From positions 1,093,001 through 1,157,000 of the forward strand of contig WPIO01000082.1 in the NCBI GenBank assembly GCA_009760855.2: 64,000 bases of DNA, in the 5' to 3' direction. Shown in pieces: positions 8,160 to 63,935 of this stretch. The notes under the pieces were generated by a model. That model saw nothing but the letters and a program-made list of their open reading frames with translations. It made no database searches and had not been told where the DNA came from. Each line of letters begins with the position of its first letter. The stretch's first letter is position 1. The DNA is from Cristatella mucedo. Lineage: Eukaryota; Bryozoa; Phylactolaemata; Cristatellidae. The position numbers and the translations under genes were made by a program.

Positions 8160-9290
8160 TTGTCTCCTCCTGTTGACGCTCTTACCAGTGGTACAGAAAG
8201 CTGTAGTGGACTACAACTACCTTATCCCTGCTTAGTATTGCAAGGTATGACAGGTTACTGATCTTACGTTTGGCAACGTAAGGACCGCTCCAGTGTTGCT
8301 TGAGCTTTGAATTTGTCCCTCGTTGTTTTCGCCTGTTTCGTAGAAAGGCTTTCTCTCTCTACTGAAATGGAATACAGTTGAATGTTTTGTCGTGTTCACA
8401 AGACTGCCTCCCCAGATGTAGGTTCAGACTCAAAAGCTTGCGCCTGACTTGTTCTACACGGTCCATGTGCATATGCATTCTGTCGTGGCTAACTGTTAGC
8501 ATCTGATCTAGCCAACGCGTCGAGCGTTATGTCGTAGGGTACTCTAACTCTATGAAGCCCGAAGTTAAAAATGTGATGATTGGATTCTCGAGTGCACTGG
8601 CATGCTGCATGCGAAGCACACATACCGCACACACAGAGAGATATCCCAATCTTGCTGATCGGCTCGAATGAGCAGTCAAAGTAAATCACCTATGGTTCTA
8701 TTGCATCTTTTCCAATCGCCGTTCCTTTTTGAATGAGAAGCAATCGTACGAACCTTTTCTCCGTGAAATCGGCTACAGGTCTCATTGAGCAGGAAATCAA
8801 TATCGGACCTATGGTCGGTGCATAATATGCAAAGCACCATCTAGACGAACGCAATACGGTTAATAAAGGCGGCAACCACTATTCAAGTTCGCTTGTTAGC
8901 CAGTGAAATAGAGATGATAAAGTAGGTAAAGTAGTCAAACACCACCCTCAAATGCTAATTGCCGGCTGGTGTCAAAGGCAAATTGCACTTTCAATAAAAT
9001 CTGAACGTGCTCAAACGGTTTGGTTGGTGATACAATTTTTCCAAACAGGACCTCCAGCTTGTTAGCTGGTGGGCCTCGTTTCTGACAAGCTACGCATGGG
9101 GAGATCCACTCCTCGATGTCACGCCTCATACAAAGCCAGAAGAAACGTTCATGACGAGACATAAGAGTCTTCTCGACTGCTTGGTGTCCTGAGGCCGGGC
9201 TATCATGCATACCCTTAAAAGAAGTCCACTGTAGCATCAGTGGCAGCATCATCCACGTGCAAGCCTGAAACATTGTCTACAGTCACTCGG
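8160..9290 (-). pseudogene. Ty3/gypsy integrase (decayed)
   Basis: From the right, the minus strand shows HDSPASGHQAVEKTL, RFFWLCMRRDIEEW and CVACQKRGPP. This is the H-H-C-C zinc-binding domain at the start of a Ty3/gypsy integrase, and PFEHVQIL follows. After a decayed core, the C-terminal part reads MHMHMDRVEQVRRK, then SKLKQHWSGPYV and VVVHYSFLYHW, the chromatin/DNA-binding tail. Integrase inserts the cDNA copy of the element. Stops and frameshifts make it non-functional. A LINE-A 3' tail is inserted just upstream (9300-9400), between it and the RNase H part. Confidence 0.8.
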
Positions 9291-9297
9291 GTATGGT

Positions 9298-9400
9298 TAA
9301 TACAAATAATAATAATAATAATAAATTCGATAAATCACCCTCAGATAAATTAATCTTTTTCTAGGCGATTTGCAATTTCGTGCAGATACAGACCGACGGT
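9298..9400 (-). mobile_element. LINE-A 3' tail inserted in gypsy remnant
   Basis: (AAT)n at 9304-9324 followed by the minus-strand LINE-A tail hairpin ('cgataaatcaccctcagataaattaatctttttctaggcg'-like, split here as degenerate). Only the last ~100 bases of LINE-A are present. It sits between the RNase H and integrase parts of the Ty3/gypsy remnant, so it arrived after it. Confidence 0.65.
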
Positions 9401-12825: not shown

Positions 12826-12973
12826 CAAAATATAATCCCTTTGTACAGCACCCCAAGAAAACTTATTCTCTATTTTGTCGCTTCACCTATGACTCGTTGC
12901 TCGAGCCCACGACCTCAGCCAGACCTTGGTCGTGGCGAGCACCTTAAACGCTGGACCAAACCAGCTCGACATA
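12826..12973 (-). mobile_element. tRNA-derived SINE (minus), present only in left duplicon
   Basis: Minus strand begins with the tRNA-like head GGTTTGGTCCAGCGTTTAAG (A-box-like) and a B-box-like GGGCTCGAGC about 60 bases on. It ends in a tail 'AATAGAGAATAAGTTTTCTT..GGTGCTGTACAAA' like those at 26.9 and 43.3 kb. The paralogous segment at 58.32 kb lacks it, which gives the insertion limits. Confidence 0.7.
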
Positions 12974-13009
12974 GTAATAATATGGAGCACAACATAACTT
13001 AATATCTTT

Positions 13010-14700
13010 GTAGACACTTAAAATAGGCTCAAAAAGAGGCACTCAACAGTGTCCACATGTATAAGAAGCTCAGTGGTAATATGCACAGCTCAAGCATGCA
13101 TAAGCAAACAAAGGACAATTCACGAGGACTAATCATATGCTATGAGCAAGTGGTGCATTTAGCTTCTTTTTAAATGTCGTCATGTCTTAACCTTCGTCTT
13201 TGGCGAGTTCCCGGATTTGGGATATACATATTAAAGGCATTGAATTATCAACAATTTTTTAGGTTGATACAAGGCACGGCTAAAGGATTTTGGTCAGAAG
13301 AGCAAGTAGTGAATGAAATGATCTGTAGTCAGATTAGCATTAGCGAGAGGTTGTGATAGACTGGCTGAAGCATGGAATGAAGAGACCTAAAAACAAGTGA
13401 CAAAATCTTGAAGCCGATACGTACCCAACTTGGAGCAAGTGCAAGTAACGAGAAACCGTGTGATGCTACGCTGGTAACAGGCATGCCTGGAGCTGTGTTT
13501 CATGTCACCTGTAAGCACCTGATTACACATGCCAAAGGACCTACAAGCAGTGAGTTGAAGAATTTGAGGTGGGATGCCAGAAATGCAGTGACCAGCTAGA
13601 CTGTAGTGTCCATGTCTAAGCAGGATTGCATTTTCGGAATGTTGCACAGTTGAAAGTGAGAAGGTCGTGCGTTACCCTAGTAAAAGGGCATTTTGGGAAG
13701 GACATCCAGACTTTGTGCAGCTGCTACAGGAGATATGCTAACAGAGCCAATTTTGAGTTTTAAGGTTAGAAATTTATGAATCACACTAGATTTTCCCTTA
13801 ACTCACAAAAGTTGCGTTATTTTCGTTCAATTTGATACAGTTTGCCGCTACCTAAATGGGGATGTCAGCAGCACAAGCAGTAAGACGGTTGAGGGAGTTT
13901 GACGTGCTGGGCGGCTGGAAGGAATCAAATCACAGGCACAGCTGTGTGTCGTCTGCTTAGAAGCAAAGGCCTATATTGTACTTGGGATCACATTGAAAAG
14001 AGAAAGAGTATACATTTATAAACAAGAATCTGACCAAGCAAAAAGCTATAGGGTAAACTGTACTTTAGTGGTTCGTCAGATGATTGAAGCTCGGTGATGT
14101 CACTCTGAAGTCCTCCACTGAGATAGGACCTAAGCAATTGCAGTGCAGTGCCAGTGATACCAGGCGAGATCGGAAGCACTCGATAAGGTCTTGGTGATCA
14201 ACCTTATCAAGTGCTGCTGAAAGATCAACTGAAACGAGCGAAAAGAGATCTGTAAAGTCTTAATTCTTTAGTAAATCGTTATTAAATCGAAACAATGTTG
14301 ATTTTGGAGAGTGATTAACTATAAGGTCAGACTGGAATTTACTTGCAATGTCTACAGTAGGAATGAATGTTTAATGAGACTGATAGTATGGATTACAGCT
14401 TCTTTGAAAGGAACTTCAGTAGGAAGACTGGAAGAGAAAGTCGCTCAAGTTCTCTTGGCCAAGTGCTGCTTTTCTAATTAGTGGCAGAGCAACAGAATTT
14501 TTGGAAGTAGAAGGTACCCGAGGCTAAAGGCATGTTTATGCATGGCTGACGCAGATTTACGCATTGAAAATCAGGAGTGTGAAAAGAGTGTCTAGCTTGC
14601 TAGGAGTCTTCTTTGTATGAGGATGAATGTCAAGATGATTATCAAGATGCCGATTGCAGTTGAGGCTCTGAGAGAAATTAGGAAGAATAGTCCTGCATAC
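13010..14700 (-). mobile_element. LINE-A copy, old, within duplicated block
   Basis: Minus-strand C-terminal region, RT and RT start of LINE-A, matched to the good copy by landmarks: 'agctgtgtttcatgtcacctgtaagcacctgattacacatgcc' type (C-terminal part), 'gatatgctaacagagccaattttgag', 'gtgctgggcggctggaa', 'agataggacctaagcaattgcagtgcagtgccagtgat' and, near 14450, 'tctcttggccaagtgctg'. Highly mutated with no long frame. The homologous copy at 58340-59410 shares private changes with it, so the insertion predates the duplication. Confidence 0.7.
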
Positions 14701-18061: not shown

Positions 18062-18255
18062 ATAAATATAATAATAATAATTAAGCACTTAATAAAGCGC
18101 CCTCAGATAACTCAATCTCTTTCTATGCGCTTTAAATTTGCTGCAAAGTGAAATGCAATTGAATGGTAAGTAAAATCATGCTTAAAAACAAATAAAATGA
18201 ATAATATGGTTAGGGGTGACATGCAAAGGGCCAGCTTGCAACGAACACGAACGCA
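18062..18255 (-). mobile_element. LINE-A 3' UTR and tail
   Basis: (ATA/AAT)n at 18066-18080 followed by the minus-strand tail hairpin ('aataaagcgccctcagataactcaatctctttctatgcgcttt' type), then the 3' UTR with 'ggttaggggtgacatgcaaagggccagcttgcaa'. About 190 bases, strongly 5' truncated. Confidence 0.8.
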
Positions 18256-26400: not shown

Positions 26401-26820
26401 ATCTGATATTTGATGGGGACTGGGGATATTTGATTTTGCCAGCTCTGCTATCTATTGTGCATTCGTCAAAAGCTCCGGTTATGCTCTTTCTTTGATGGTA
26501 ATGTGCAAAGGTTTCAAGGATGCTCCGTAAATCCGGCTATTGAGAGTATGGGCTAGCCAAATATATTAACCAGTTATTGTAACTCTATACCTATACGTAT
26601 GGTCGAGTGACAGGTCTGATTCATCAGCGATCTTCTTTTTAATGTCGGCCGCAGTTATATTTAATTCTGAGTGGGTACGTAAAATCACCCATCGAGCCTA
26701 AAGTTGCTGGTTGTCGGTATTCCTTAGAATGGTGCTTGTCGGTAATCCAAGTAAGGGCTAGTAAGGCCCTCTCGGTTAACCTAGCCTCACTTACGAAGTA
26801 ATCAGTCTCTCATGCCACGC
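23451..26820. other. Long non-coding stretch
   Basis: No recognisable gene or LINE. A direct tandem pair of about 19 bases (GTGCATTATAAAGGAGCAT) occurs at 24871-24910. Frames of 180-220 nt on the minus strand at 25318-25654 show no domain. Confidence 0.4.
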
Positions 26821-26975
26821 AGGTTTGGCCCAGTGGTTAAGGTGCTCGCTTCGAACCAAGGTTAAGATGAATGCATTGGATGACCAAGGTCGTCGGCTCG
26901 AGCCCAGTGGAACATATGAAGCGCCTGAATAGAGGTGAAGCTCTCTTACGGTGCCATGCAAGTGCTAGCTATATT
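26821..26975 (+). mobile_element. tRNA-derived SINE (plus), best head
   Basis: The head reads GTTTGGCCCAGTGGTTAAGG (A-box), with a B-box-like GGCTCGAGCCC at 26895-26905. Then comes a body and a 3' end GAAGCGCCTGAATAGAGG...GCTCTCTTACGGTGCC at 26919-26965. The 3' end parallels the LINE-A tail hairpin (AAGCGCCTAGAAAGAGATT..GTTCTC..GGCGCTT). No microsatellite tail remains. Confidence 0.75.
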
Positions 26976-32200: not shown

Positions 32201-32205
32201 TCACC

Positions 32206-32335
32206 CTGGTTTGGCACAATGGATCTAATACTCGCCTTTAACTTACCAAGTCTTGGGATCGAGCCCTGCGGCTTATGAAAAACGCATGGGCATTGATTAG
32301 TTTCTCTTAGGGTGATATACAAATTTATTAAATGT
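32206..32335 (+). mobile_element. tRNA-derived SINE (plus)
   Basis: Head GGTTTGGCACAATGGATCTA with a B-box-like GGGATCGAGCCC at 32255-32266, and a 3' end TTAGTTTCTCTTAGGGTGAT followed by ATACAAAT, as at 43.3 kb. Divergent copy. Confidence 0.6.
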
Positions 32336-34479: not shown

Positions 34480-36093
34480 TCTTCCTATCAAAGACAATAG
34501 AACCGGATGTGGCAGACCAGCTAAACATATATCTTAAAACTTCAAACCTTGCTAGTAAGTTCCAGTCTGGCTTTAGAGCTAATCAATCCAAAGAGTCAGC
34601 ATTGCTTCGGGTGTACGACGACCTTCTTAGCAATGCAGACATAGGTAGAGTGTCTCTGCTTGTTCTGCTCGATCTTTCAGCAGCTTTGGATACATATTAA
34701 TAATAATGCATAATAATACATAATAATAATAATAATACATAATAATACAATACTATCGATTACAAAGTTCTTCTAATGTACCTATCATCTCGCCTGGGCA
34801 TCACTGGCACTGCTCTGCAATGGTTCAGTTCCTATCTCAATGGGAGACTCCTGAGTATTGACGTGAATGGATAAAGATCATCCGAGGTACCTCTGAAATA
34901 TGGGGTACCTCGGGGTTCCGTGCTAGGTCTGGTTCTTTTCACGGTTTATGCTCTCCCTCTTGCTGATGCGATTGCCAAGCACAGTCTAGGCTTTCACTTC
35001 CATGGTGATGACACTCGGCTGTACCTTTGCTTTGATCATTCCCAGCTCTCAAGCTCCTCGAATTCTCTCAACTAACTTGCTGCATGCATCGATGACATCC
35101 CCGAATAATGGAAGCAAATTTTCTAAAACTAAGCGATGATATAACCAACTTACTAGTTATGGAAAACCCAGTGTGATTAAGAAATTAGAAAGGCTGACAC
35201 TCAAAATTTGCTCTGCCAGCATATCTCTGGTTGAACAAGCTCGAAATTTTCGTGCCATGTTCCAAATTGACCTCTCGTTAGACGATAACATCAGCTCTAC
35301 AGTCAAACCTACTTTAAACTACATAAGATTGCTAGAATTTTGGCTTGTTTAGATAGGGATGCCACGTCTAAGTTGGTCCATGCATCTGTGACATCCTGAC
35401 TTGACTTCTGTAACTCACTGCTTGCGGGCCTACCGGATGTGCAATCAGGCGATTACAGCTGGTGCAAAACTCCACAGCCAGGCTTGTCTGTCGTGAGCTT
35501 CGCAGTTGCCACATCGCACCACGTCTCGCCGACATGCACGGCACACCAGTCAAGCAACAGATCGACTTCAAGGTCTTGTCGCTCACTCATTGGTCACTTC
35601 ATTCTTTCGCTCCAGCCTATCTCTCAGATCTACTCCACCCACCAGGCCAAGCATCGTATCACCTGCTTTTCGGTATTCAACAGTTTACTAATGCCTTGTA
35701 TAAACCAGAAATCCTTTGGAGACCGTGCATTTAGTTTGTATGCTCCCAAAGCCTCTAAATACCTCCCGACATGCGTCAGAACATCCCCTGACTTGACCAC
35801 ATTTAAAAAGAACTTAAAAACACACCTATTGAGGACAGCATTTAGTGGGTCTCTGCGATTCTTCCTTCATGTACTTAGGCATGCTGACACGGTGCATGCT
35901 GCAACTACTCACACTTGCATGCTGACCCTGTGCACGTCACCCCTAAACATGTTATTCGTGTTTATCAAGCATGATATTACTTACAATTTAATCGCGCTTC
36001 CCTTTTCAGGAAATGTAAAGCACCTAAATATAGACTGAGTTCTCTGAGTGCGCTTTATCACGTGCATTATTATTATTATTATTATTATTATCG
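34480..36093 (+). mobile_element. LINE-A copy, RT to (ATT)n tail
   Basis: Plus-strand order: VADQLN-like start, KFQSGFRANQSKESALLRVY, RVSLLVLLDLSAALDTY. A 58-base AT microsatellite insert follows, then ALQWFSSYLNG, GVPRGSVLGL (motif B), FHFHGDDTRLYL (catalytic motif altered to GDD), the C-terminal domain RAFSLYAPKASKYLP with TTFKKNLKTHLLRTAFSGSL, the 3' UTR, and (ATT)n at 36066-36091. There are many stops in the RT half. A 600-nt C-terminal frame (35439-36038) is open and reads through the point where other copies stop. Confidence 0.85.
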
Positions 36094-37555
36094 GCAGTGC
36101 GCAGTACTTTGCCACTATTACGGCCTCTTGCAATTCATAGCGGCTCATTTTATAGAGTGACCTAGTCTCTCCGAGATTGTTAAGCACAGCATCTTCCGTA
36201 GGTTCTCGTTAATTTATGGTGACAATCTGTTGATGCCAAGTGGTCAGGATACGAGCGGTCAGTCGGCCGTCCATGTGGCAGACGAGATGCCACAGTCGTG
36301 ATTATGGGAAATTTAAACGTTTAGCTTATCCGTTTTTCTTTACACTTTACGTGCTTACCTGTGCTGATTCTATGCAGGTTACTAGCCACGGGTCCAACTA
36401 ACCAGCGATCTCAAGTATTTTATTTTTTTATTTGAATGCTTCTCAAAGTACGACACATTGCTCGCCATCAACTCTGGGATTATCGCTTCTTTTATAGCGT
36501 GCTGTAACGCGACTGGATAGAGCTTTGGTTATCCTAGGGTGCTTTTAATAATCCTACGCTGAACTTCAACACGAACCCGGGATTTGACAACAGAATCACA
36601 AAAGACATTACTTACGCGGTTTTTGGAAAGCCACTGCTTCTGTAGGTTTACGTAGGGTCCAAATGAGCACACGGTTTCAGCATCTCTGCAAATGATAAGT
36701 ACAGTATGCACCCGAAGTCTGTTTGTCATAAGCTTGTTACATGGTCAGAAAAATTGTGGGTTTCAAGACACACGATTGAGGGAATCACTCAGCCGCAGCT
36801 ATGTAAACGAGCCGGCCAAGCGGCGAAGCTTGTTAAACAGCTAGGAGCTAGCTGCCACTGCTGCTGGCTTGCGAAGAGAATCGATCGGCGGTTACACTTT
36901 CTCCTTGGGTTCCAAGAAAATCTCTAAGAAAGCTATAATGCAATGCTGACTGAGAAGCAAGGGTGCGTGTAGCAGTATTCCAAGCGAGCAAGCATCTCTT
37001 TACAGAAATACTCAGGCACTCGGCCGATAATATTCACCCTGGTAACAGCTTCAAAATAACAGCACATTACAACAGCTCATAGTGCATTCTCATATCCGAA
37101 TGGCACTAAAGCTGCCAAGCCTTTCACCACAGGCAAGTGAAACCGAGTTGGATGATTTACCGTGCTATCTGAATTGCTACAAATAGATACTAAGCTTTTC
37201 ACAATATGGTTCACAAATGAAGATTTCATGATTTAGGTGTGTTCTAATTCTAACAAGAGAATGTAGCACAGTTTGTATTCGTGGGTAGTGTTATTTCGCA
37301 AATGCCTATTATCTCAGAAGTACAGAAAATTGTCATTATTCCTTGTAAACTGTGCTTTGGTGAACTGATCGATGAATAGCTTGAAATTAACCAATTAAAT
37401 ATTATATTTTGATTGGAATTTAGTTCGAAGGATACGAAAAGGAATTAGAATTAGTATGTATTTACCTACTCTGAAGTCATGCACAAATGACCAATCAAAA
37501 CGGTTCAGCAATGACTAGACGTTCTAGAATTGTGGCTATACTGCAAAGCGAGTTC
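36094..37555. other. Spacer, nothing recognised
   Basis: No gene or repeat family recognised. Confidence 0.4.
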
Positions 37556-41600: not shown

Positions 41601-42191
41601 CAGCTATATTTATCTGCAGCTGCAGTTGCCGCCAACGCCTAGAAAGTGACGAATACTGCATCGTGTTGGATGTATACATGTTACTATATATGGTTCCAAG
41701 TAGTTGCTTTATACGGTGATAGGAATTAAAAAGCCTTCCATTCCTCTTTAAAAAATAAAACGACTCGAAGCCTTAAGTATGACGAAATACTGTGGATGGA
41801 AACCAGCCTGATCGATAATACTCCAGGTAGTCTGAAAATAAACGAAGGCATTGTCTAATATAAAACATTTCTGCTATTGATTTTATTTAAGCGATGCTTT
41901 TATCACCTGGATAAGACCATTGTAAATAAGACACTTGAAAAAATTGATTGTCGTTGAGATCATATTGCACAAAATAAATGGCGTGATTTATTGATTGCCA
42001 TTTTCTCAATGTGCAAATGCTGAGTGGGGTTTTTACCGCATAAATTATTAGGCCACTCAGCAGTGTCTACGTGGAGCAAAGCAAGTGAAAATAGGCCTCA
42101 TAGAAAGGTTTGAACATGGCAGGGGTTTTCTGCTGGCCGTTACCATAGCACATGCGTGGTGCTGCAATCCTCCTGCAGCAACAGAAGGTGC

Positions 42192-42527
42192 ATGCAAATG
42201 GAGCGGATCGCCATCTTTCTTCACTGCGTCGCGAGTTTCTATGTGACAGCAGAATACTTAGGCTGCCACTCGAGTTACTTTGACCAGATTCAATACGTGG
42301 CATCTGAATTGGTCAGTCTGGAGACTCTGACTGCAGTCACTGGTGTTTCTCAGCTCCTGAGGTGTACCATACTCTGCTTTTTGGAGCCGACGTGTAAATC
42401 TGTGATCTATGATCGAGGGGCCAGTTCTTGCTACATGAGCCCAGCAACTTACCATTATATAGCCAGCAGATTTGCGACTAACTTCAGCTATGCTGGATTG
42501 AAGACTAGATGCACAGACTTTAACGAG
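42192..42527 (+). CDS. First exon: signal peptide + PAN/apple-like domain
   Basis: The frame from ATG 42192 (or the in-frame ATG at 42198) gives MQMERIAIFLHCVASFYVTA, a plausible secretion signal. A Cys-rich domain follows with LRCTILCFLEPTCKSVIYD, SSCYM and a final Cys in KTRCTDFNE, at donor gag|gtaagg (phase 0). The spacing C-x3-C-x5-C..C fits PAN/apple domains, which mediate protein or carbohydrate binding in secreted proteins. The exon encodes 112 residues. The reading frame runs on into the intron for 55 codons, but the donor and domain end argue against using them. PAN plus FReD architectures exist in invertebrates, so this may belong to the same cluster as the FReD exons. That link is inference. 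Confidence 0.65.
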
Positions 42528-43225
42528 GTAAGGCATAAACCACCTAACACGTTGCTTGTTGTTCTATCATGTTATATAAATTTGTTTAACATCGCATATC
42601 CAGCCACACGGTCTAGTACACGATCGCTATTTTCGCTTCGTAACCAGAATTGTTCAAGATTCGATCGAAACATATACTTGTATGTCTTTTAATACTGGTC
42701 AGAGCTGGTTAGGATTGTTATATAATAGTTTTGCATGTAATGCGAAATCAGCCACCAGCTTCAAATTTCTGCAGGGATCAGTTTCAGTGTAGAGTCAAGT
42801 GACGAGGTTCTGAATAATTTACACACCGTTATCGCAGAGTTTTGACTCCAGGAATACCCAGTTTCTGCCTAACGTCCAATCGCTGCTTTGCTTTGTTAAT
42901 CATATGGGGCTTCCATATTGAAAAAATTCCATAATTCCTTAAAAACTCGAAGTGCAAGCACTGAGTGCTGTTATGAATTTAAATAATGCCATGGGAAATG
43001 TTGCCAGTAGAGTGGTGCGTGCCATATGCCCTTGAATTCCGATCAAAGGCATGTCAGCCTGTATACAGCCAAAAAGAACAAGTATTGTGGTGCATGCCAC
43101 ATGACCTAGTAATACGAGTGAGCTACATAGCCAATTAGGATGAGTAAACTTGCGTACGCCACATGCCCTGGCATCTAGAACTGGCAAGTTTGCAGGTGTT
43201 TTGAATTCACTATAGGATTTCAATT
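42528..43225. other. Intron/spacer
   Basis: A decent acceptor (aaatttctgcag) at about 42774 precedes no frame I can recognise. Confidence 0.35.
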
Positions 43226-43370
43226 GTAGCTTTGCCCCAGAGGTTAAGGTGATCGCACCGACCAAGGTTTGGCCTAAGTAGTAGACGATAAATAGCCTCG
43301 AGGCATACGTGAAGCGTCCGAATAGAGATTAAGTTCTCATATAGCACTATACAAATGAATTATATATTAT
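43226..43370 (+). mobile_element. tRNA-derived SINE (plus)
   Basis: Head GTAGCTTTGCCCCAGAGGTT followed by AAGGTGATCGC. The body has ATAGCCTCGAGGC in the B-box position, and the 3' end reads GAAGCGTCCGAATAGAGATT, AAGTTCTC, and then AGCACTATACAAATG. The 3' end is close to the LINE-A tail hairpin sequence. Confidence 0.65.
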
Positions 43371-45246: not shown

Positions 45247-46830
45247 GATAATAGCAATAATAATAAATTTGATAAAGTGCCCTCAGAGAACTCAATCTCT
45301 TTCTATTCCTTTTACAATTGCTACAAAGAAAGCGCGATCGATTTCTTAGTGGTAGCACGCTCAATAAGCAACAAGAATAACATGGTTAGGGATGACATGC
45401 ACAGGGTCAGCATACAAGTATGATTAGTGGCAGCGTATAACGGTGGCAGCACGCACATACAGGAAAAATCACCGGGGCCAACTGAATGCAGTGATAAATA
45501 GATGCGTTTATAGTTTCTTTTTAACTGTGGACAATTTGGAAGATGCCGTTACAAAAGTCGGGAGTAAGATTCCAGACTTTGGAAGTGTACGAACAAAAGG
45601 CAGGGTCTCAAACAGATTTGTGGTTTGTACGAGGTGTAGTAAAATACCTAGATTTCGAAAAGTGGGTAGAACTATGCTTAGCCAGGTGGGATGAAGATCT
45701 AATAGGTGGACTGGAGCAAAAGAAAGAAAGTGCTCGAAAGTGAGTAAACAAACCTCGAAGTCGATGTATTGCCTGACTTGGAGCCAGTGCTGGTCGGGGG
45801 GGGGGAGTGGTGTGACAAGCCTAGCTGTATAGTTTTGCACCAGCTGTAAGTGCCTGATTTCACAGACCAGTCTACCAGTAAGCAGTTAGATACAGAAGTC
45901 AAGAAAGGATTTCAAAAAGCCACGGATCAATTTTGATGTGACAAAACTGTCTAAACAAGCTCAAAGTTTAGCAATGTTATTTAGCTTAAAGTAGGCAGAA
46001 TTCACCGTGGAGCTGATGTGGTCGTCAAAGGAAAAATCACGTTGGAACGGTACACCTAAATTCCGTGCAGCTTTAACAGGAGACATGCTGGCAGAGCCGA
46101 CTTTGAGCGTTGGCCTTTCCAATTTCTGAATAACACGTGAATTGCCTGCAGCTAATAAGTTGGTTTTACTATCATTTGATTTAAGAAAATTAGCTGCCAT
46201 TTATATACGAATGTCATCAATACATATAGCAAGGGAGTTGAGAGAATTTGACATGCTGGAGTGCTGGGAATGATCAAAACAAAGATACAAAGGAGTTGTC
46301 GTCATCATAAAAGTGAAAGCCTATATTTGGCTCGGTAATCACATCGGCTAGAGGGAGAGTATAGAAAATGAAAAGAAGTGGACCAACACGGAACCTTGAG
46401 GCACCTCATCTTTCAGAAGTTCCTCGGATGGTATTTGTCCATTCACATTAATACTCTGGTTCCTCCAAATGAGATAGGACCTGAACCATTACAGAGCCGC
46501 ACCAGTGATGCCCAGGCGTGATGACATGTGCTCAAGAAGGACTCGATGATCGATAGTATCAAAAGTCGCCGAAAGATAAAAAAAAAACAAGTAAACATAC
46601 TCTACCGATGTATGCATTCAGAAGTAAGTCGTACACCAGAAAAAGTGCTGATTCTGCGGAGTGATTAGCTCTAAAACCTTAATGGAACTTACTAGCACAG
46701 TTTGAAGTTTTAATGTATGAGTTCAGCTAGTCTGTCACAACCTCCTTTAAGTGTCTTTGATAGGAATGGTAGAAGTAAGACTGGGTGGAAGTTGCTAAAG
46801 TTCACCCGATCTAGTGTTGCTTCAATAAAG
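45247..46830 (-). mobile_element. LINE-A copy, tail to RT
   Basis: (AAT)n at 45247-45261, then the tail hairpin, 3' UTR and C-terminal region, including antisense of HWLQVRQYIDFEV. Then come KVGSASMSPVKAARNLGVPF, FDDHISSTVNSAYF, and RT landmarks up to 'gttgctaaagttcacccgatctagtgttgc' (compare 62370-62400). Frames are broken several times. The 5' end is truncated in the RT. Confidence 0.8.
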
Positions 46831-47986: not shown

Positions 47987-50028
47987 GTGACTATTGAACC
48001 TACGACTGCTGATCCTGCGACAATTGGCCTGTACCAACCGGCCTGTCAACAATTGATCTACATACCATCTGTTCTGCTACTAATGGACCAACGACAACTG
48101 GCCTGTACTAAATGACCTATACAATAATTGATTTATATGTCAATTTATAAGAACAATACACAATTTTTAATTTAAACAATGGATACCAGCAATTAAGAAT
48201 GAATTCATGACCGTCTGCATTTTTTTTATATTAATCCAACAGGATTACGAGCAAAACTTTTTTTTTCTCTTAAAAGTGTCAAAAATGTTCATTACGTTCT
48301 AAATAAAACCGATCTTAATGTTACTGTAGCTTCTAAACTAACTTTACGACAAATATGCGATGGCTTGAAGAAAAATTAGAACATCTGTACGACCGTAACC
48401 TTCAACAGCCAGCCAAACATTTTTGGCCAGCTCGAGGTATCTCGTTGCTTGGACAACAAGAACGCCAGTGGCACCTTGCCAGAATAAGGCAGTCTACTTA
48501 CTGTGGTCCATGAGAAGCTCATCCAGAAATGTTCACATCTTTTGATGATGGCACTGGAACAATGCTTGGAACCCATAATTCCACCACTCTACTGCATTAG
48601 TTGTACGAGCTACACCGTCTACTGATGCCACATACTGATCTAGCATCCCACCGGGAAGAGCGTGTCGTAGTTATCACCTCGACCTTTCAGACGTCTGCCT
48701 CGGATGTAAGTATGTTCGAAGTAGGAGATCAGCTCGATAATACGCTCATGTGATGGCATACAGTCGGACGGACAGCAGCTCAAATGCTTCGATGGCATCA
48801 GTCTCTGGTACATGTGCAAGTGCTGGTAGATATTGGCCTGCACTGCGAATAACATCATTATAAAAGTTTCAAACCATTCATTCATTCCTAACTCGTTGAA
48901 CTTTCGCGTGACGCTCTGAGTGAGATGGAAATAACAGCCCGTAATTGTAACAGTCAAGTACAAGGCAGAGAAAGCATTAATAGCTGCTGCTTCGAAATCG
49001 ATGAGAATGGTTTGAGGGTTTACAGAAGGTATGAGACGCTTGAGTTTGGCGAGAAGGCGACTTTATGTTGCTCGAGTCTTTTTTAGAAGTAGGCAGTACA
49101 GTCCAATAGGGATAAGTCGTGGGAAAAAAAGAAAATAAATGGTGTGCAGTTGAAAACAGAGTAAGGGAACTACTTGAAACGTACCGTCAGCTAGCCACAC
49201 GTCTGCTCGAGCCAAGCCGTCAAGTAAGGTGTTTCTTCCCAAGATAATCTGTCGATCCTGTCCCGAGTCAAACAGTACGAAACTAATGAATTTCTGAGGG
49301 ACATCAAATAACAGATCGGTGGGTGTCGGTGGAGATGTTTTGTCGGCCTCGGACAAGTCCTTCTTTATCTGCAGCCGCAGTACTCTATTCAAGGTTGAGT
49401 TCCTCAGTAAAGCCATTAGCACGTCATCAGATAAGTTTCTAGCGAAAAGAATCTTGCACTGCACTCAGAGTCGCAGAAACCTCCAATATCTTAGCTTTCA
49501 TGTCACCAACAGGCTTTTTCGCCTGGCTTTTGCAATGTTATCTTCGTGGCAGTGTTCTGGAGCGCGATTTCCAACAACTATCGTGCCATTCGTTATTAGA
49601 CGAGGTTTGCAACCAAGTTGACGGTATTTGCAGCATCGCCAATTCATAGTGCTGCTTGCATTAACGATTATCTTCCAGTATTCAAAGTTTCTATATATAG
49701 CAGTAGCATTTCCACGTTCGGAAATTCCGTGCCGTATCACTGAATACGTGATACATAAATGTGTTGGTGTTCAACAATTATTAACTTCACAAAATATAAT
49801 CTCTATTTATGTATACTTGCTGATATCCAATCCTTATAATTGTCTTTAACCTTTTATGTTTATATATATTTATAAACTAATTTGATCAAATAAAACCGAC
49901 CTGCACCAGTTTTATTTGCATTGCCTATTTCTGATCTTTGGGCCTCTTGTCATAGATCAGTTGTCATATAGATCAATTGTCGTATAGTCCAGTTGTTACA
50001 GGAAAATTGTCGTAGGGCGAGTAGTCAC
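47987..50028 (-). mobile_element. MULE (Mutator-like) DNA transposon with FLYWCH domain
   Basis: The transposase lies on the minus strand between long terminal inverted repeats. The left TIR (47987 to about 48130) and the right TIR (about 49905-50028) are both built of repeated ~15-base units of the type CGACAATTGGCCTGTA. The outer ends GTGACTA..CCTACGAC match in inverted orientation. Length about 2.04 kb. No certain 8-10 bp target duplication was seen, so the exact ends are approximate. Confidence 0.75.
48290..49740 (-). pseudogene. MULE transposase with N-terminal FLYWCH zinc finger
   Basis: From 49740 down: NWRCCKYRQLGCKPRLITNG and then EHCHED form a FLYWCH zinc finger (W, C, C, H.H), which binds DNA. 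Then come RADVWLADGTFQVVPL (first catalytic Asp, DGTF), QLHTIY, ILIDFEAAAINAF (second Asp, DFE), TITGCYFHLTQSV, and MLDQYVASVDGVARTTNAVE with WWNYGFQALFQCHH (MULE C-terminal signature). The protein would cut and join the TIR ends. Breaks: a stop between KKTRAT and SRLLAKLK, a shift between the FLYWCH and catalytic frames, a stop before QYVASVDG, and a stop after CHHQKM. It is recently decayed compared with the LINEs. Confidence 0.8.
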
Positions 50029-51875
50029 AAGTTTAATTGTCGGTACACCAAGGCTTCCGATTGCAACTGGAAGATACTTTCAAGAAGTGAGCTACAGAAA
50101 TCTTGTATGGATGTCAAAACTAGATGGACTATGGTATCATTGTAGTAGTAATCCCAAACTTTTGCTATGGTACATAGATGTAAGTAGGCGGAGTGAAATT
50201 TGGAGTTCTCCAGAGAAATTTTGCTTTAGAAAAAGACAATTTTACCTTTTGCAGATGCTACTGTGAACATTTTTAGACCCTGAAAAATTATGGAGTGAGG
50301 CTTATCAACTTCTGAAACACTTTAGATTTGTCAATAAGTATTAAGTTGGTTTTATTTTTACTGTATTTTGAGAAGGTTTCCATTCATCCTAAATTTAATG
50401 AATGCCATAATTACTCAAGTGGAATCAAGCTTGTTCAACTATTTGCAAAGAATGGTGGTATCAAAGAACACGCACACCTACTAACGATCCATACTACAAT
50501 GAACGCCTATAGTTTCCTCGGTGAATACGTCAACAAGAAAAAGATTATATATATTTTGCAATGTTGATGAACAAACACAGATTCCAAGAGAAATTCATAG
50601 TTTAAAGACTCCACGAACAATCTTAGCCCGATGAAATAAGTCTTCTGAAATCTAGTAATATTATAGGACCTACACCGTTGCAACGGGAAGCCCTGCTTAC
50701 GCGAAGTGATTTGTATTCAAGAATGACTTGGTTATTAAGGGTATCAGCCCTGCCCAGAGATCAAAACTAGCAGAACGACTCAACAAAAGTCACAATTCCT
50801 CTATAGGTCGTTGTATACTTCCAACTGTGCTGCATGCGATTAGCTATTATTTGTATACATGGCTGTAGCTGTTTGGGCGAAGTTGCTAAAATTAAGGTGT
50901 AACAAATTCTTCATGATTAGCATTAAAAGAGAGCCTTTCTGAACAATTTTTGGGATATACCTGAGTTTCTGAACATGTTCATCATGTTCATCATGTTTTC
51001 ATTAGAAGTAAACTGCAAATATAGGCATCACACAAGAAGACAAGTTATTTTTCTTCTAAAATGAGGAGCTTGTTCTTAGTATAATTGCTGTTAAAAAAAC
51101 GCATGCACCCAGTAGCACCATTTACTACCACCCTAGGCAGCCTTTTGACGAAGTAAGGATATTTTCAAGTCACATCTTTCGTATTAAAAATACCACCTTT
51201 ATATCACTACAAGCAGCATATGGCATGCAGTTCCAAGTCCATAGCAGTGACTGCAAAGTTCTAAGTTTTGTGGTTGGAGCAGCCGCACTACTGGTAAAGA
51301 TTTACCTCCAAATGGTCAGTTACATGGTCTGGAGAGACGCTGCTGTCCGAGCAGTTGGAGCCTTAGCCGCTACTGGTGTGGCTACGAAGAGAGCTGCTCT
51401 CAAGTGCTAGAAGCAGTGCTAAGAAAGCCAGGACATGTCAGCTGATGATAAAATGCTTAAACTGGATGTTTTAAGTCTTGTTGACAATAAGCTATTGCCT
51501 CTCCTGCCAACATATTTAAAGTTTCTGAATGGAGATGAATAGAATGCCTGAATAGTGCTCTCTCAACATGATATGCTATTTTCATTATTATTATTATTAT
51601 TTTGACAAGATATGGATTAATTAGTAGGTTTTCCGTCGCAGCTTCTAGCTCGATGCCCTGTGTGCCACGAATATTATCATCGCTTGGCATCTGGAGCTTA
51701 ATATCTAGTTCAGCTCATCTCAGAATCAAGTTGTTTGGGACGAATAAGTACTTAAAAGCCTTAGTTTCCACAAGATAAGAGATATTACTAATTTTTTGCT
51801 TTAGGGTTCTCTCCAGCTTTCTAGTTTACTGGAAAGCTTTGAAGTAAGACCCTTATACTTAATAAAAAAATTCGC
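50029..51875. other. Spacer with an (ATT)n tail-like site
   Basis: (ATT)n at 51583-51601 follows a sequence loosely like a LINE tail (GTTTCTGAATGGAGATGAAT..), possibly another LINE family. A 61-codon frame at 51225-51410 with an Ala/Val-rich segment has no recognisable domain. Confidence 0.35.
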
Positions 51876-54102: not shown

Positions 54103-54372
54103 TCACTAGGACAGCATTTAGTGGGTCCCTGTGATTCGTCCTTCACGTGCTTATGCGTGCTGACACTTTGCATGCTGCCACTAACCACATTTGCATGCTG
54201 ACCCTGTGCATGCCACGCCTAACCATGTTATTCATTTTGTTTGTTTTTCAAGCATGATTTTACTTACCATTTAATTGCATTTCTCTTTGCAGCAAATGTA
54301 AAGCGCCTAGAAAGAGATTAAGTTCTCCGAGGGCGCTTTATCAAGTACATTAATATTATTATTATTATTTAG
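54103..54372 (+). mobile_element. LINE-A 3' end, short and well preserved
   Basis: Starts at 'aggacagcatttagtgggtccctgtgattcg' (last codons FSGSL-stop). It carries the full 3' UTR with two GCATGCTGACxCTxTGCATG repeats, the tail hairpin AAGCGCCTAGAAAGAGATT..GTTCTCCGAGGGCGCTTT at 54301-54341, and (ATT)n at 54352-54371. This is a good reference for the 3' end. Confidence 0.9.
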
Positions 54373-59411: not shown

Positions 59412-60606
59412 TTTAAATATTTATAATAACAATACATTTGTATAGAAATTTCATAGAACTGAATCTTTTTCTAGGCACTTTATAGACACTGAATAGAAAG
59501 CATTTACCAAATAATTAGTGGGAACATACTCAAAAAGAAAGATTTCCTAAATGATTGCTGGTAACATCCGCAGGCAGCAGGCATAGAATAAGCAGGTACA
59601 TGCATACGAAGAACAAATCACATAGACCCACCAAATGCTGTAATACACAGACGCGTTCAAAGCTTATTTAAATTACATCTTGTCAGAGGGCCTTGCGAAG
59701 TGCATCGGAGTGAGTTCCAGACTTTATGAGCATACGAACAAAAGGCATGGTCTTCAACTGTTTGAGGTCGTACGAGGTATGGCTAATCAATCAGAGTAAG
59801 AACAGCGGATTGTAGGATTCTTCGCCTTGTGCTGGAGTAGTTATGATAGGTAGGTTTGAGCCAGATGATGAAGGGCCTGACAAGTAAGTGACAAAACCTT
59901 AAAGTCGATGCACTGCTTGACTGAGAGCCAGTGCAGGTCGGCTAGAAGTGGTGTGGGGCAACTGTGAAGCTCCCGACAGACAAGACTAGCTGGTAAGTTT
60001 TTCACCAGCTGAAAGCACCTGTTTGCACAGGCGGGTCTATCAGCTAGCAGTGAGCTATACAAGTCAAGACGAGATGTCCCCAAATGCATGGACCAATTGG
60101 AATGAGGCGTCCATGTCTAAACAAGCCCGAACCTTGGCAATGTCATGTAGCTGAAAGTAGGCAGACTTGTATGAGGAGCTGGTGTGGTCGTCTAATTATA
60201 GGTCACTTTGGAACTGGACACCCAAATTACGTGAAGATTCAACAGTAGATATTCTGAAGAAGCCGATTTTTAGCATCTGGTTTTTTCAATTTTGGAATCG
60301 CAATTGGTTTGCCTAACACTATTAATTTTGTTATGTCGTCATTCAATCGATGAATATTTGCTACTATCCATATGCGAATGTCATTAATACATGCAGCAAG
60401 GGTGTGTAGAGAACTCGACATGCTCTTGGGCTGGAAGAGATCAAAGCAAATGTACAAATGAGTTTCATCTGCATTAACCCAAGATTGGGCTTCACTATCA
60501 CGTCGGCAAGAGTGCCAGTATAAACTGTGGAAAGACGGGGATCAATCATATTGCCCTGAGTTAATTCGTACTTAAGTGGTTCCTCGGATAAATTTGTCCG
60601 GCTACA
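59412..60606 (-). mobile_element. LINE-A copy, tail to mid-RT
   Basis: AT-rich tail at 59415-59440, then tail-hairpin-like sequence, 3' UTR, and a C-terminal region with antisense of RPACANRCFQLVKNLPASLV and HWLSVKQCIDFKVLSLTCQA. RT landmarks run up to 'ctcggataaatttgtcc'. It ends where LINE-B begins. Frames broken. Confidence 0.75.
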
Positions 60607-60788: not shown

Positions 60789-61022
60789 AGTAATAATAAT
60801 AATAATAATGCATTTGATAAAGTGGCCTCAGAAAACTTAATCTCTTTCTAGGCACTTTACATTTGCAGCAAAGGGACATGCAATTGAATGGTATGTAAAA
60901 TCATGCTTGAAAAACAAACAAAATGAATAACATGGTTAGGGGTGACTTGCACAGGGTCAGCTTGCAAATGAGGTTAGTGCAGCATGCACAGTGTCAGCAC
61001 CCATAAGCACATAAAGGACGAA

Positions 61023-61728: not shown

Positions 61729-62652
61729 CTAGAAGTTAGTCGTTAGTTCATCGTTTAGTTCTAGAAAATTTGCTGCCATCCATGTGCGGATGTCATCAAT
61801 GCATGCAGCAAGTGAGTTGAGAGAATTTGAGGTGCTCGAATGTTGGGAGGGATCCAAGCAAAGGTACAACCGACTATCATCCGCATAGAAGTGAAAGCCT
61901 AGATTGTGCTTGGCAATCACATAAGCAAGAGAGAGAGTATAAACCGAGAAAAGAACCAGACCTAGCACGGAGCCTTGAGCTGCTCCATATTTCAGAGGTA
62001 CTTCAGATGATCTTTGTCCATTCAAGTCAATACTCTTGAGTCTCCCACTGAGATAGGACCTGAACCACTGCAGAGCAGTGCCAATGATGGTCAGGCGAGA
62101 TGAGAGGCCCTCTAGAAGAACTTTGTGATCGATAGTATCAAAAGCTGCCGAAAGATCGAGCAAAACAAGCAGAGACACTCTACCCACGTTTGCATTCCTA
62201 AGTAGGTCGTTGTATACCCTAAGCAATGTTGACTCTGTGGAGTGATTAGTTCTAAAGCCAGAGCGGAACTTCCTAGCAAGGTGCGAGGTTTCAATGCATG
62301 AGTTTAGCTGGTCCGCCACGACCAGTTCCAGTGTCTTTGATAGGAATGGTAGAAGGGAGACTGGGTGGTAGTTGCTCAATTTCTCTTGGTCTAGTGTCTC
62401 TTTCTTGAGAAGTGGCCCGACTACAGCTTTTTTGAAAGGTGCTGGGACATGACCTGAGGCTAATGACATATTAATGATGTTAGTTATGCATGGCAGCAGC
62501 AGATCAATGTAACGTATGAGCAGGACAGTGGGAATACGGTCCAGAGGACTTGTTGTCTTCATTGATTGAGATACGAACTTGAGGACTAGATCACTAGTGA
62601 CCTGCTTAAATGCAGACATTGTGAGGTGCAGCCAGGAACCGAGGAACAGCAT
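61729..62652 (-). pseudogene. LINE-A reverse transcriptase (longest frame in window)
   Basis: 307 codons. Residues about 60-110 carry MSLASGHVPAPFKKAVVGPL and YHPVSLLPFLSKTLE (RT fingers). Residues 167-176 are LSAAFDTIDH (first catalytic Asp), 224-231 AAQGSVLG (primer/template motif, usually PQGS), and 254-263 HFYADDSRLY (YADD catalytic pair). The enzyme would copy the element's RNA at a nicked target. The frame is uninterrupted but ends early by a shift near NDELTTNF, where related copies read LNDSKTN. The next part continues at 61726-61529 in another frame. Its first ~10 residues overlap the linker frame and are probably not native. Confidence 0.85.
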
Positions 62653-62968
62653 TCTAGTGGGAAGGTTGTCATCGCAGGGACGGATTCCCTGATCTTGTCT
62701 ATCTTCTGCACAAAGAATCGAGAGAAGCGATCGGCTAGACCATCACAACGATCATCAGGTAATGAGCTAATCTGAGAACGGTTGGGGAGATGGTTTATTG
62801 TCGATATCAGCATTTTTGGATTGTGCATTTGTGATTTAACAATGTTTCTATAGAAGCTAGACTTGGCCTGTGCTAGGATCGATTGGTACGACCTACAGTA
62901 GTCGTCATATAGCTTTCGATAGACAGATAGTCCGGATCTTGTGTATGCTTTTTGAAGCTTTCGTTTAG
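62586..62968 (-). pseudogene. LINE-A EN-RT linker
   Basis: KRKLQKAYTRSGLSVYRKLY, then SILAQAKSSFYRNIVKSQ, ISTINHLPNRSQISSLPDD and LADRFSRFFVQKIDKIRESV. This is the typical linker between endonuclease and RT in L2/CR1 proteins (Y...KI..IR). The seven residues before it (MLLATST) come from antisense LINE-B, so the insertion junction lies at about 62968. A shift separates it from the RT frame. Confidence 0.75.
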
Positions 62969-63078: not shown

Positions 63079-63935
63079 CAATGTGTCATATTCTTGGCGA
63101 CCTCTCGTTAGATGACCGTACAGCTACACAGTCAAATCTGTCTATTTCAGCTTCAAAATATTGCTAAAATTCTGCATTGTTTAGATAAGAATGCGGCGTC
63201 CAAGATAGTCCACGCATTCGTGACAACCCACCTCGACTTCTGCCACTCACTGCTTACTGGCCTACCAGCATGTGCGATCAGGCGATTGCAGGTGGTGCAA
63301 AACTCCGCAGGTCGGCTTGTCTGTCTTGAGCATCACAGTTGCCACATTACAGCACTTCTCGCCGACCTGCACTGACTACCAGTCAAGCATAGGATTGACT
63401 TCAAGGTTTTTGTCACTCACTTTTTGGGGACTTCGCTCTTTGATTCCAGCCTATCTCTCAGATGGACTACCCCGTCAGGCCAAGCATCGTAACACCCGCT
63501 TTTCGGAATCCAACAGTCTCCAAATACCTCTTTCAAACCTCAAACCCTTGGGAGACCGTGCGTTTTGTTCGTATGCTCCCAAAGCCTGGAACTCCCTCCC
63601 GACCTGCGTCAGAACATCCCCTGACCTGACCCAATTTAAAAAGAACTTAAAAGCTCACCTATTTAGGACCGCATTTAGTGGGTCCCTGTGATTCGACCTT
63701 CATGTGATTATGCGTACTAACACTGTGCATGCTGCCACTAACCACATTTGCATGCTGACCCTGTGCATGTCACCCCTAACAATGTTATTCATTTTGTTTG
63801 TTTATCAAGCATGATATTGCTCGCCATTCAATTGCATTTCCTTTTGCAGCAAATGTAAAGCGCCTAGAGAGAGATTGAGTTCTCCGAGGGTGCTTTATCA
63901 AGTGCATTATTTATATTATTATTATCATTGTTATT
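63079..63935 (+). mobile_element. LINE-A 3' end, plus strand, inside LINE-B
   Basis: Starts at the DRTATQSNLSISASKYC-like segment after the RT. It carries the C-terminal domain (frame 63272-63691: RAFCSYAPKAWNSLPTCVRT, then TQFKKNLKAHLFRTAFSGSL-stop), the full 3' UTR, the tail hairpin AAAGCGCCTAGAGAGAGATT..GTTCTCCGAGGGTGCTTT at 63856-63898, and (ATT)n to about 63935. Opposite in orientation to the LINE-A 110 bases to its left. Confidence 0.9.

Follow-up and report, generated by a model that had tools for sequence, protein, structure and literature searches.

The dispersed SINE family described here ends in a 3′ tail that, as sequence comparison supports, it shares with a group of L2/CR1-like LINEs, both genome-wide and in the window, the 64-kb stretch of DNA that was analyzed as a whole. 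We propose that the two probably form a SINE/LINE partnership of the stringent type, in which the 3′ end of the SINE comes from the L2/CR1-like lineage, with LINE-C or a close relative as its most likely source among the three LINE families compared. LINEs of this type have a reverse transcriptase that recognizes a 3′ stem-loop, with the loop as its most important part, and a SINE that ends in such a tail is considered to exploit the LINE machinery, as outlined in PMC4176376, PMC3747384 and PMC2653535.

Four copies of the SINE lie in the window. The SINE profile bounds S1 at 26819-26966 on the forward strand, with a LINE-type tail from about position 26909; S2 at 43226-43362 on the same strand, with a tail from about 43303; and S3 at 12966-12832 on the reverse strand, directly behind a LINE tail at 13040-12976 of the same orientation. 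S4, at approximately 32202-32330 on the forward strand, is the most decayed of the four and was recognized by its head (E = 7.2e-13). A head-only profile of the SINE matched S1 to S4, and its next best match in the window reached only E = 1.9. An earlier note on this DNA had described two SINEs, at 26.9 and 43.3 kb. Both are real and the sequence strings quoted in that note are present where it placed them, as a direct check confirmed, but the window contains four copies.

The same elements recur with common 5′ and 3′ ends throughout the genome, for which an assembly of 572 Mb in 688 contigs was searched. The consensus of the four window copies retrieved 1725 first-look candidates, the best of which matched at 95% across all 133 bases, and the SINE tail alone retrieved 578, of which 40 were scored, each at 90% or more; these counts, like those for the LINEs below, are of candidates unconfirmed as copies. 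The sample used for comparison was drawn from the best-scoring hits, and filters on score, length and repeats reduced its 68 full-length hits to 65 rows; of the 68 sequences, 65 are distinct. The resulting genome-wide consensus runs from the head through the B-box region and GCATATGTGAAGCGCCTGAATAGAGATTAAGTTCTCTTGGGGCGCTATACAAATGAATTA to an AT-rich end; the element is approximately 135 bases long, of which the LINE-type tail makes up approximately 60. Shared words of at least eight bases flank 8 of 59 SINE copies, compared with 3.5% in mismatched flanks, which is a hint of target-site duplication, although one of the eight (L069) arises artefactually from a tandem array. That locus (G000:C528:2539334-2539651) carries SINE copies arranged head to tail. 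A literature search by sequence words of the elements, which is a weak form of search, found no description of this SINE.

What kind of promoter heads the SINE? S1 begins with an A-box-like TGGCCCAGTGG at 26826 and a B-box GGCTCGAGCCC, and this box pair is the only one in the 64 kb and occurs in none of 20 block-shuffled windows. The heads of S2 to S4 match the A and B boxes only in part. A tRNA origin of the head is suggested by these box motifs only. ARAGORN reported no tRNA in the window or in 23 loci and, on the SINE consensus, none by default and a single irregular candidate in a relaxed run that allowed introns. Rfam likewise gave no tRNA match for S1 to S4 or for locus L065 at E values up to 10, and a scan of the window at its gathering thresholds returned no match. 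The tail starts within approximately five bases of the B-box and thus leaves no interval in which a central domain could lie.

Tail searches located 13 LINE 3′ ends in the window, each preceded by matching LINE sequence. LINE-A tail hairpins lie on the forward strand at 54281-54352, behind a LINE-A 3′ region that begins at 54107, and at 63838-63909, behind an ORF2 C-terminus at 63224-63688. Further LINE-A tails are found at 35998-36069 on the forward strand and, on the reverse strand, at 18081-18152 and 60805-60876; LINE-A-like tails occur at 712-783 and 45262-45332, also on the reverse strand. A LINE-B 3′ end occupies 59418-59636 on the reverse strand (LINE-B profile, E = 3.2e-26 and 1.8e-21), and its tail ends in CTATACAAATG as in the SINE. 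LINE-C is represented on the forward strand by a 3′ end at 36431-36545 (LINE-C profile, E = 2e-15) and a decayed one at 51454-51606 (E = 2.2e-7). A reverse transcriptase fragment lies at 61732-62742 on the reverse strand (PF00078, E = 2.2e-20), and the matches of the LINE reverse transcriptase to solved structures named the L1 ORF2 protein, R2 and RNA-directed DNA polymerase. From the C-terminal motif and the tail type, we take the window LINEs to be putative members of the L2/CR1 group.

The comparison of families covers LINE-A, LINE-B and LINE-C as a non-exhaustive sample. LINE-A yielded 884 first-look candidates, 40 of which were scored, with 97-100% identity to the query; the 34 sampled copies, left of 35 after the same filters, are young (median 98% to consensus), with the reservation that all LINE samples consist of best-scoring hits and are biased in age towards young copies. 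LINE-B, found via locus L050, yielded 6050 candidates, the most of the LINE queries used here, and is represented by 20 fetched copies and L050. Its consensus is built from these fetched copies and replaces that of eight "CTATACAAA" tails, which was discarded because it included two SINEs (L048 and L057). LINE-C yielded 1377 candidates and was found via L129, one of two among 20 sampled pattern hits that have no SINE head; its sample comprises 20 fetched copies and this seed. None of these 21 rows carries a SINE head, and three of four upstream stretches contain reverse transcriptase and/or C-terminal coding sequence.

The resemblance between the SINE 3′ end and the LINE tail, which the earlier note had proposed, exceeds chance. 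Within the window, BLAST aligned LINE tails to S2, S3 and S1 with best E values of 5.4e-5, 3.4e-4 and 0.001, respectively; the LINE tail queries did not hit S4. When the SINE tails were scored with a profile of 12 LINE tails alone, the four copies gave E = 2.8e-5, 1.4e-4, 0.017 and 0.52, each with the match in the correct orientation and at the 3′ end of the SINE. The first two fall inside the HMMER inclusion threshold and S1 just outside it, whereas the tail of S4 is not significant, at the level of the reversed-window control (best E = 0.48). In the opposite direction, a SINE-tail profile recovers the LINE tails in the window (best E = 2.2e-7). The LINE-only and SINE-only consensus tails are identical in 51 of 62 columns and score 37, compared with a maximum of 17 among 5000 shuffles. 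The differences between them appear fewer in the inner hairpin than elsewhere, but not significantly so (P = 0.14).

Is the shared tail also a shared structure? For both SINE and LINE, the consensus tail has a predicted fold with an extended outer stem and an inner GAGA/TCTC stem, together with a loop of six bases. The AAGCGCC/GGCGCTT outer stem, earlier ascribed to both, is perfect in LINE-A; in the SINE, the 3′ arm reads GGCGCTATAC and leaves an A·A mismatch in the lower stem. The window consensuses fold at -26.5 kcal/mol (z = -6.6) for the LINE and -22.6 kcal/mol (z = -4.9) for the SINE. The genome-wide consensuses give energies of -24.5 (SINE), -21.9 (LINE-A), -23.7 (LINE-B) and -21.5 (LINE-C), with z scores of -5.6, -4.0, -5.4 and -4.4, respectively, and similar minimum free energy folds. 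A tail stem-loop is thus modeled for the SINE and all three LINEs on consensuses only, and the single window copies S1 to S4 fold no better than their own shuffles (z = -0.76 to 0.35). RNAalifold found no structure in 13 LINE tails, probably because old copies blur it, and covariation was assessed instead by counting on a fixed structure. The covariation that the earlier note had suggested looking for was not detected, since 193 out of 500 shuffles scored at least as high as the real alignment. Paired cells amount to 76.9%, compared with 39-56% when the structure is slid along the alignment, but a structure read from the same sequences tends to exceed slid ones. Dead insertions drift without constraint and are not expected to covary, and the test therefore has no bearing on the hairpin either way.

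Which LINE is the partner? The earlier note had named LINE-A. Old window LINE copies gave a first pointer to an older partner: at 22 of 31 changed diagnostic sites, they carry the SINE state (P = 2e-5 if the chance is 1/3, 0.015 if it is 1/2), although this test is weak because young copies behave similarly (5/8) and the copies are related. Within a core of 48 bases, the number of positions at which the SINE consensus agrees is 43 for LINE-C, 40 for LINE-B and 37 for LINE-A, and LINE-C is the nearest of the three consensuses for all 65 distinct best-scoring SINE copies. In the window, S1 to S3 are nearest to LINE-C over this core and S4 is tied between LINE-B and LINE-C; the LINE-C profile likewise ranks top for three of the four SINE tails (27.4, 28.0 and 25.3 bits). 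When alignment columns are bootstrapped, LINE-C is preferred over LINE-B in 87% and over LINE-A in 97% of resamples. The whole GAAT block of CCTGAATAGAG is present in 56 of 65 SINE copies and 12 of 21 LINE-C copies (11 of 20 without L129), and in none of the 34 LINE-A or 21 LINE-B copies. Taken singly, its second state (A) is likewise absent from both of the latter families, G occurs in none and one copy, respectively, and T in one and none. LINE-C was reached through a pattern that contains a SINE-like block, which favors SINE-like tails, and CCTGAATAGAG is found within one mismatch in 12 of the 21 LINE-C rows. Decay agrees with LINE-C as the source: the window SINEs match their own consensus at 34-40 of the 48 core positions, similar to LINE-C copies (median 38; LINE-B 45, LINE-A 47). 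Taken one by one, copies of LINE-C do not approach the SINE consensus more closely than those of LINE-A or LINE-B (medians 37, 37 and 38, maxima 41, 41 and 40, for LINE-C, LINE-A and LINE-B), and the case for LINE-C therefore rests on the consensuses.

On these figures, LINE-A itself is probably the wrong partner, and we regard the earlier proposal as unlikely. Its young copies are the strongest LINE matches of the SINE-tail profile in the window, and its GCGCC, which reads GTGCC in LINE-B and LINE-C, also occurs in the SINE. However, LINE-A differs from the SINE at 11 of 60 consensus columns, has the fewest core matches, lacks the GAAT block and is the nearest LINE of not one of the 65 SINE copies. 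The tail sharing with an L2/CR1-like LINE group that the earlier note described thus stands, but LINE-A as the partner falls to a refutation that the note itself had set, a better match of the SINE tail to another LINE, here LINE-C. Mobilization by LINE-B is somewhat more plausible than by LINE-A, though still improbable. LINE-B and the SINE have the exact GGGCGCTATACAAATG end in common, and the SINE end ACAAATG agrees with LINE-B where LINE-C has ACAAAAGAC; moreover, S4 scores best with the LINE-B profile, and LINE-B retrieved the most candidates. This is set against its lower number of core matches and the absence of the GAAT block from its copies. A family intermediate between LINE-B and LINE-C, outside the present sample, may be the actual source.

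Two further explanations concern the tail rather than the partner. The likeness could reflect chance or convergence on a simple hairpin, as the shortness of the tail, the negative covariation test and the control-level score of S4 with the LINE-only profile would allow. This is extremely improbable, given that none of the 5000 shuffles reaches the consensus score, that the tail lies at the 3′ end in all four SINEs and that the SINE and the LINEs also have letters of the unpaired loop and linker in common. Alternatively, the SINE could have donated the tail to the LINEs, or a third element could have supplied it to all of them. We consider such a transfer very unlikely because the tail occurs in at least three LINE families with scarcely similar 3′ regions upstream of it, which suggests that it is probably older than the SINE. 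Borrowing by the SINE from a LINE-C-like lineage remains our preferred reading.

In the proposed mechanism, a SINE with a polymerase-III-type A/B-box head and no central domain would have acquired its 3′ end from the L2/CR1-like LINE lineage. We infer that the SINE is transcribed and that the tail of its RNA folds into a LINE-like two-part hairpin, consisting of the outer stem, the inner GAGA/TCTC stem and the loop TTNAGT. The reverse transcriptase of a LINE-C-like element would bind this tail, and target-primed reverse transcription would then copy the SINE RNA at the target, starting from its AT-rich end. The apical loop is TTNAGT in all four family consensuses, and its variable base is A in 61 of 65 SINE copies, G in 26 of 34 LINE-A copies, C in 18 of 21 LINE-B copies and, among the 21 LINE-C copies, T in 11 and A in 7. 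It is conceivable, though we hold it to be doubtful, that this base, in a hairpin that otherwise hardly varies, acts as a recognition tag by which related LINE proteins are confined to their own RNA, and that the SINE follows whatever LINE-C-like lineage reads A. If true, the loops would offer a naturally occurring set for studying how the tail specificity of LINEs diverges and how a SINE changes partner.

The sharing of tails between SINEs and LINEs is an established phenomenon, of which the SINE described here is one further case. The V-SINE, DeuSINE and MetaSINE superfamilies, which include molluscan RUDI, are defined by a conserved central domain, and MetaSINEs are often tRNA-headed with LINE-derived tails. 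The present SINE differs in having no interval between head and tail for such a domain, and is set apart from them by this spacing. V-SINEs and DeuSINEs are also described as often tRNA-headed with LINE-derived tails in PMC3747384, which tabulates many CR1/L2 SINE/LINE pairs. Among these, SINE2-8_SP/L2-1_SP of a sea urchin and Nve-Nin-DC-SINE-1/L2-22_NV of a sea anemone are likewise invertebrate SINEs with a CR1/L2 tail, and are likened here by their description (PMC3747384). HAmo SINE/HAmoL2 of carp, in the L2 clade, and UnaSINE/UnaL2 of eel resemble the present pair as reported, in that an A/B-box SINE has a short 3′ tail that shares sequence and a hairpin with an L2-type LINE (PMC2653535, PMC3747384). 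HAmo SINE and LINE, however, are reported to share a GGAUA loop, as in UnaL2, and HAmo to end in TAAATG repeats (PMC2653535). The present elements have a TTNAGT loop, and the LINEs here terminate in ATT repeats; by its loop, the present SINE does not belong to the UnaL2/HAmo subtype. The zebrafish LINEs ZfL2-1 and ZfL2-2 are of the stringent type, and their retrotransposition is reported to need the 3′ stem-loop, above all the loop (PMC4176376); the stem-loop here is predicted from consensus sequences.

The pair would extend by one the list of genomes in which SINEs ride on an L2/CR1-like LINE tail. LINE donors of SINEs are often unknown; according to a survey of bivalves (PMC10294476), donors had been identified for no more than three of the eight SINE families described. 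The window also illustrates a trap, in that its youngest and most visible LINE need not be the partner of a SINE, which an older relative fits better. In addition, the SINE and three sister LINE tails, which coexist in a single genome and differ at a few bases of loop and linker, provide a usable test set for tail recognition.

Several loci bear on where such elements come to lie. The start of S3 adjoins an old LINE tail, within the ATT repeat of that LINE (window 12832-13040, reverse strand), and TATTATTA flanks S3 at both ends. At locus L014, positions 1623-1675, close behind a LINE-A end, hold a tail of the SINE type that includes a B-box-like GGGCTCGAGCCC and lacks a recognized head; this headless tail possibly represents a second SINE subfamily. 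Both cases would fit priming on such repeats, although two cases prove nothing. Another headless SINE tail, at approximately 1340-1560 of locus L048, follows LINE ORF2 C-terminal sequence. It was considered as a LINE/SINE chimera and rejected, given that LINE-like sequence seems to resume behind the SINE tail; by its sequence it is probably a 5′-truncated SINE inserted in a LINE.

Pattern scans of viral contigs for the element found nothing, and one pattern match among genomic contigs (L001) was dismissed as chance; it lies inside a bacterial gene, presumably trmB from its protein. An orphan LINE-type tail at 9321-9391 of the window lies near a piece of another retroelement, an integrase zinc-binding domain at 8938-9276 on the reverse strand (PF17921, E = 3.4e-15). 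Similarity to a MULE-type transposase at 48643-49062 on the reverse strand (PF10551, E = 7.5e-4) is under the curated cut-off. On the forward strand, an open frame at 42114-42689 encodes a PAN_1 domain (PF00024, E = 1.2e-5) and is possibly an exon of a host gene.
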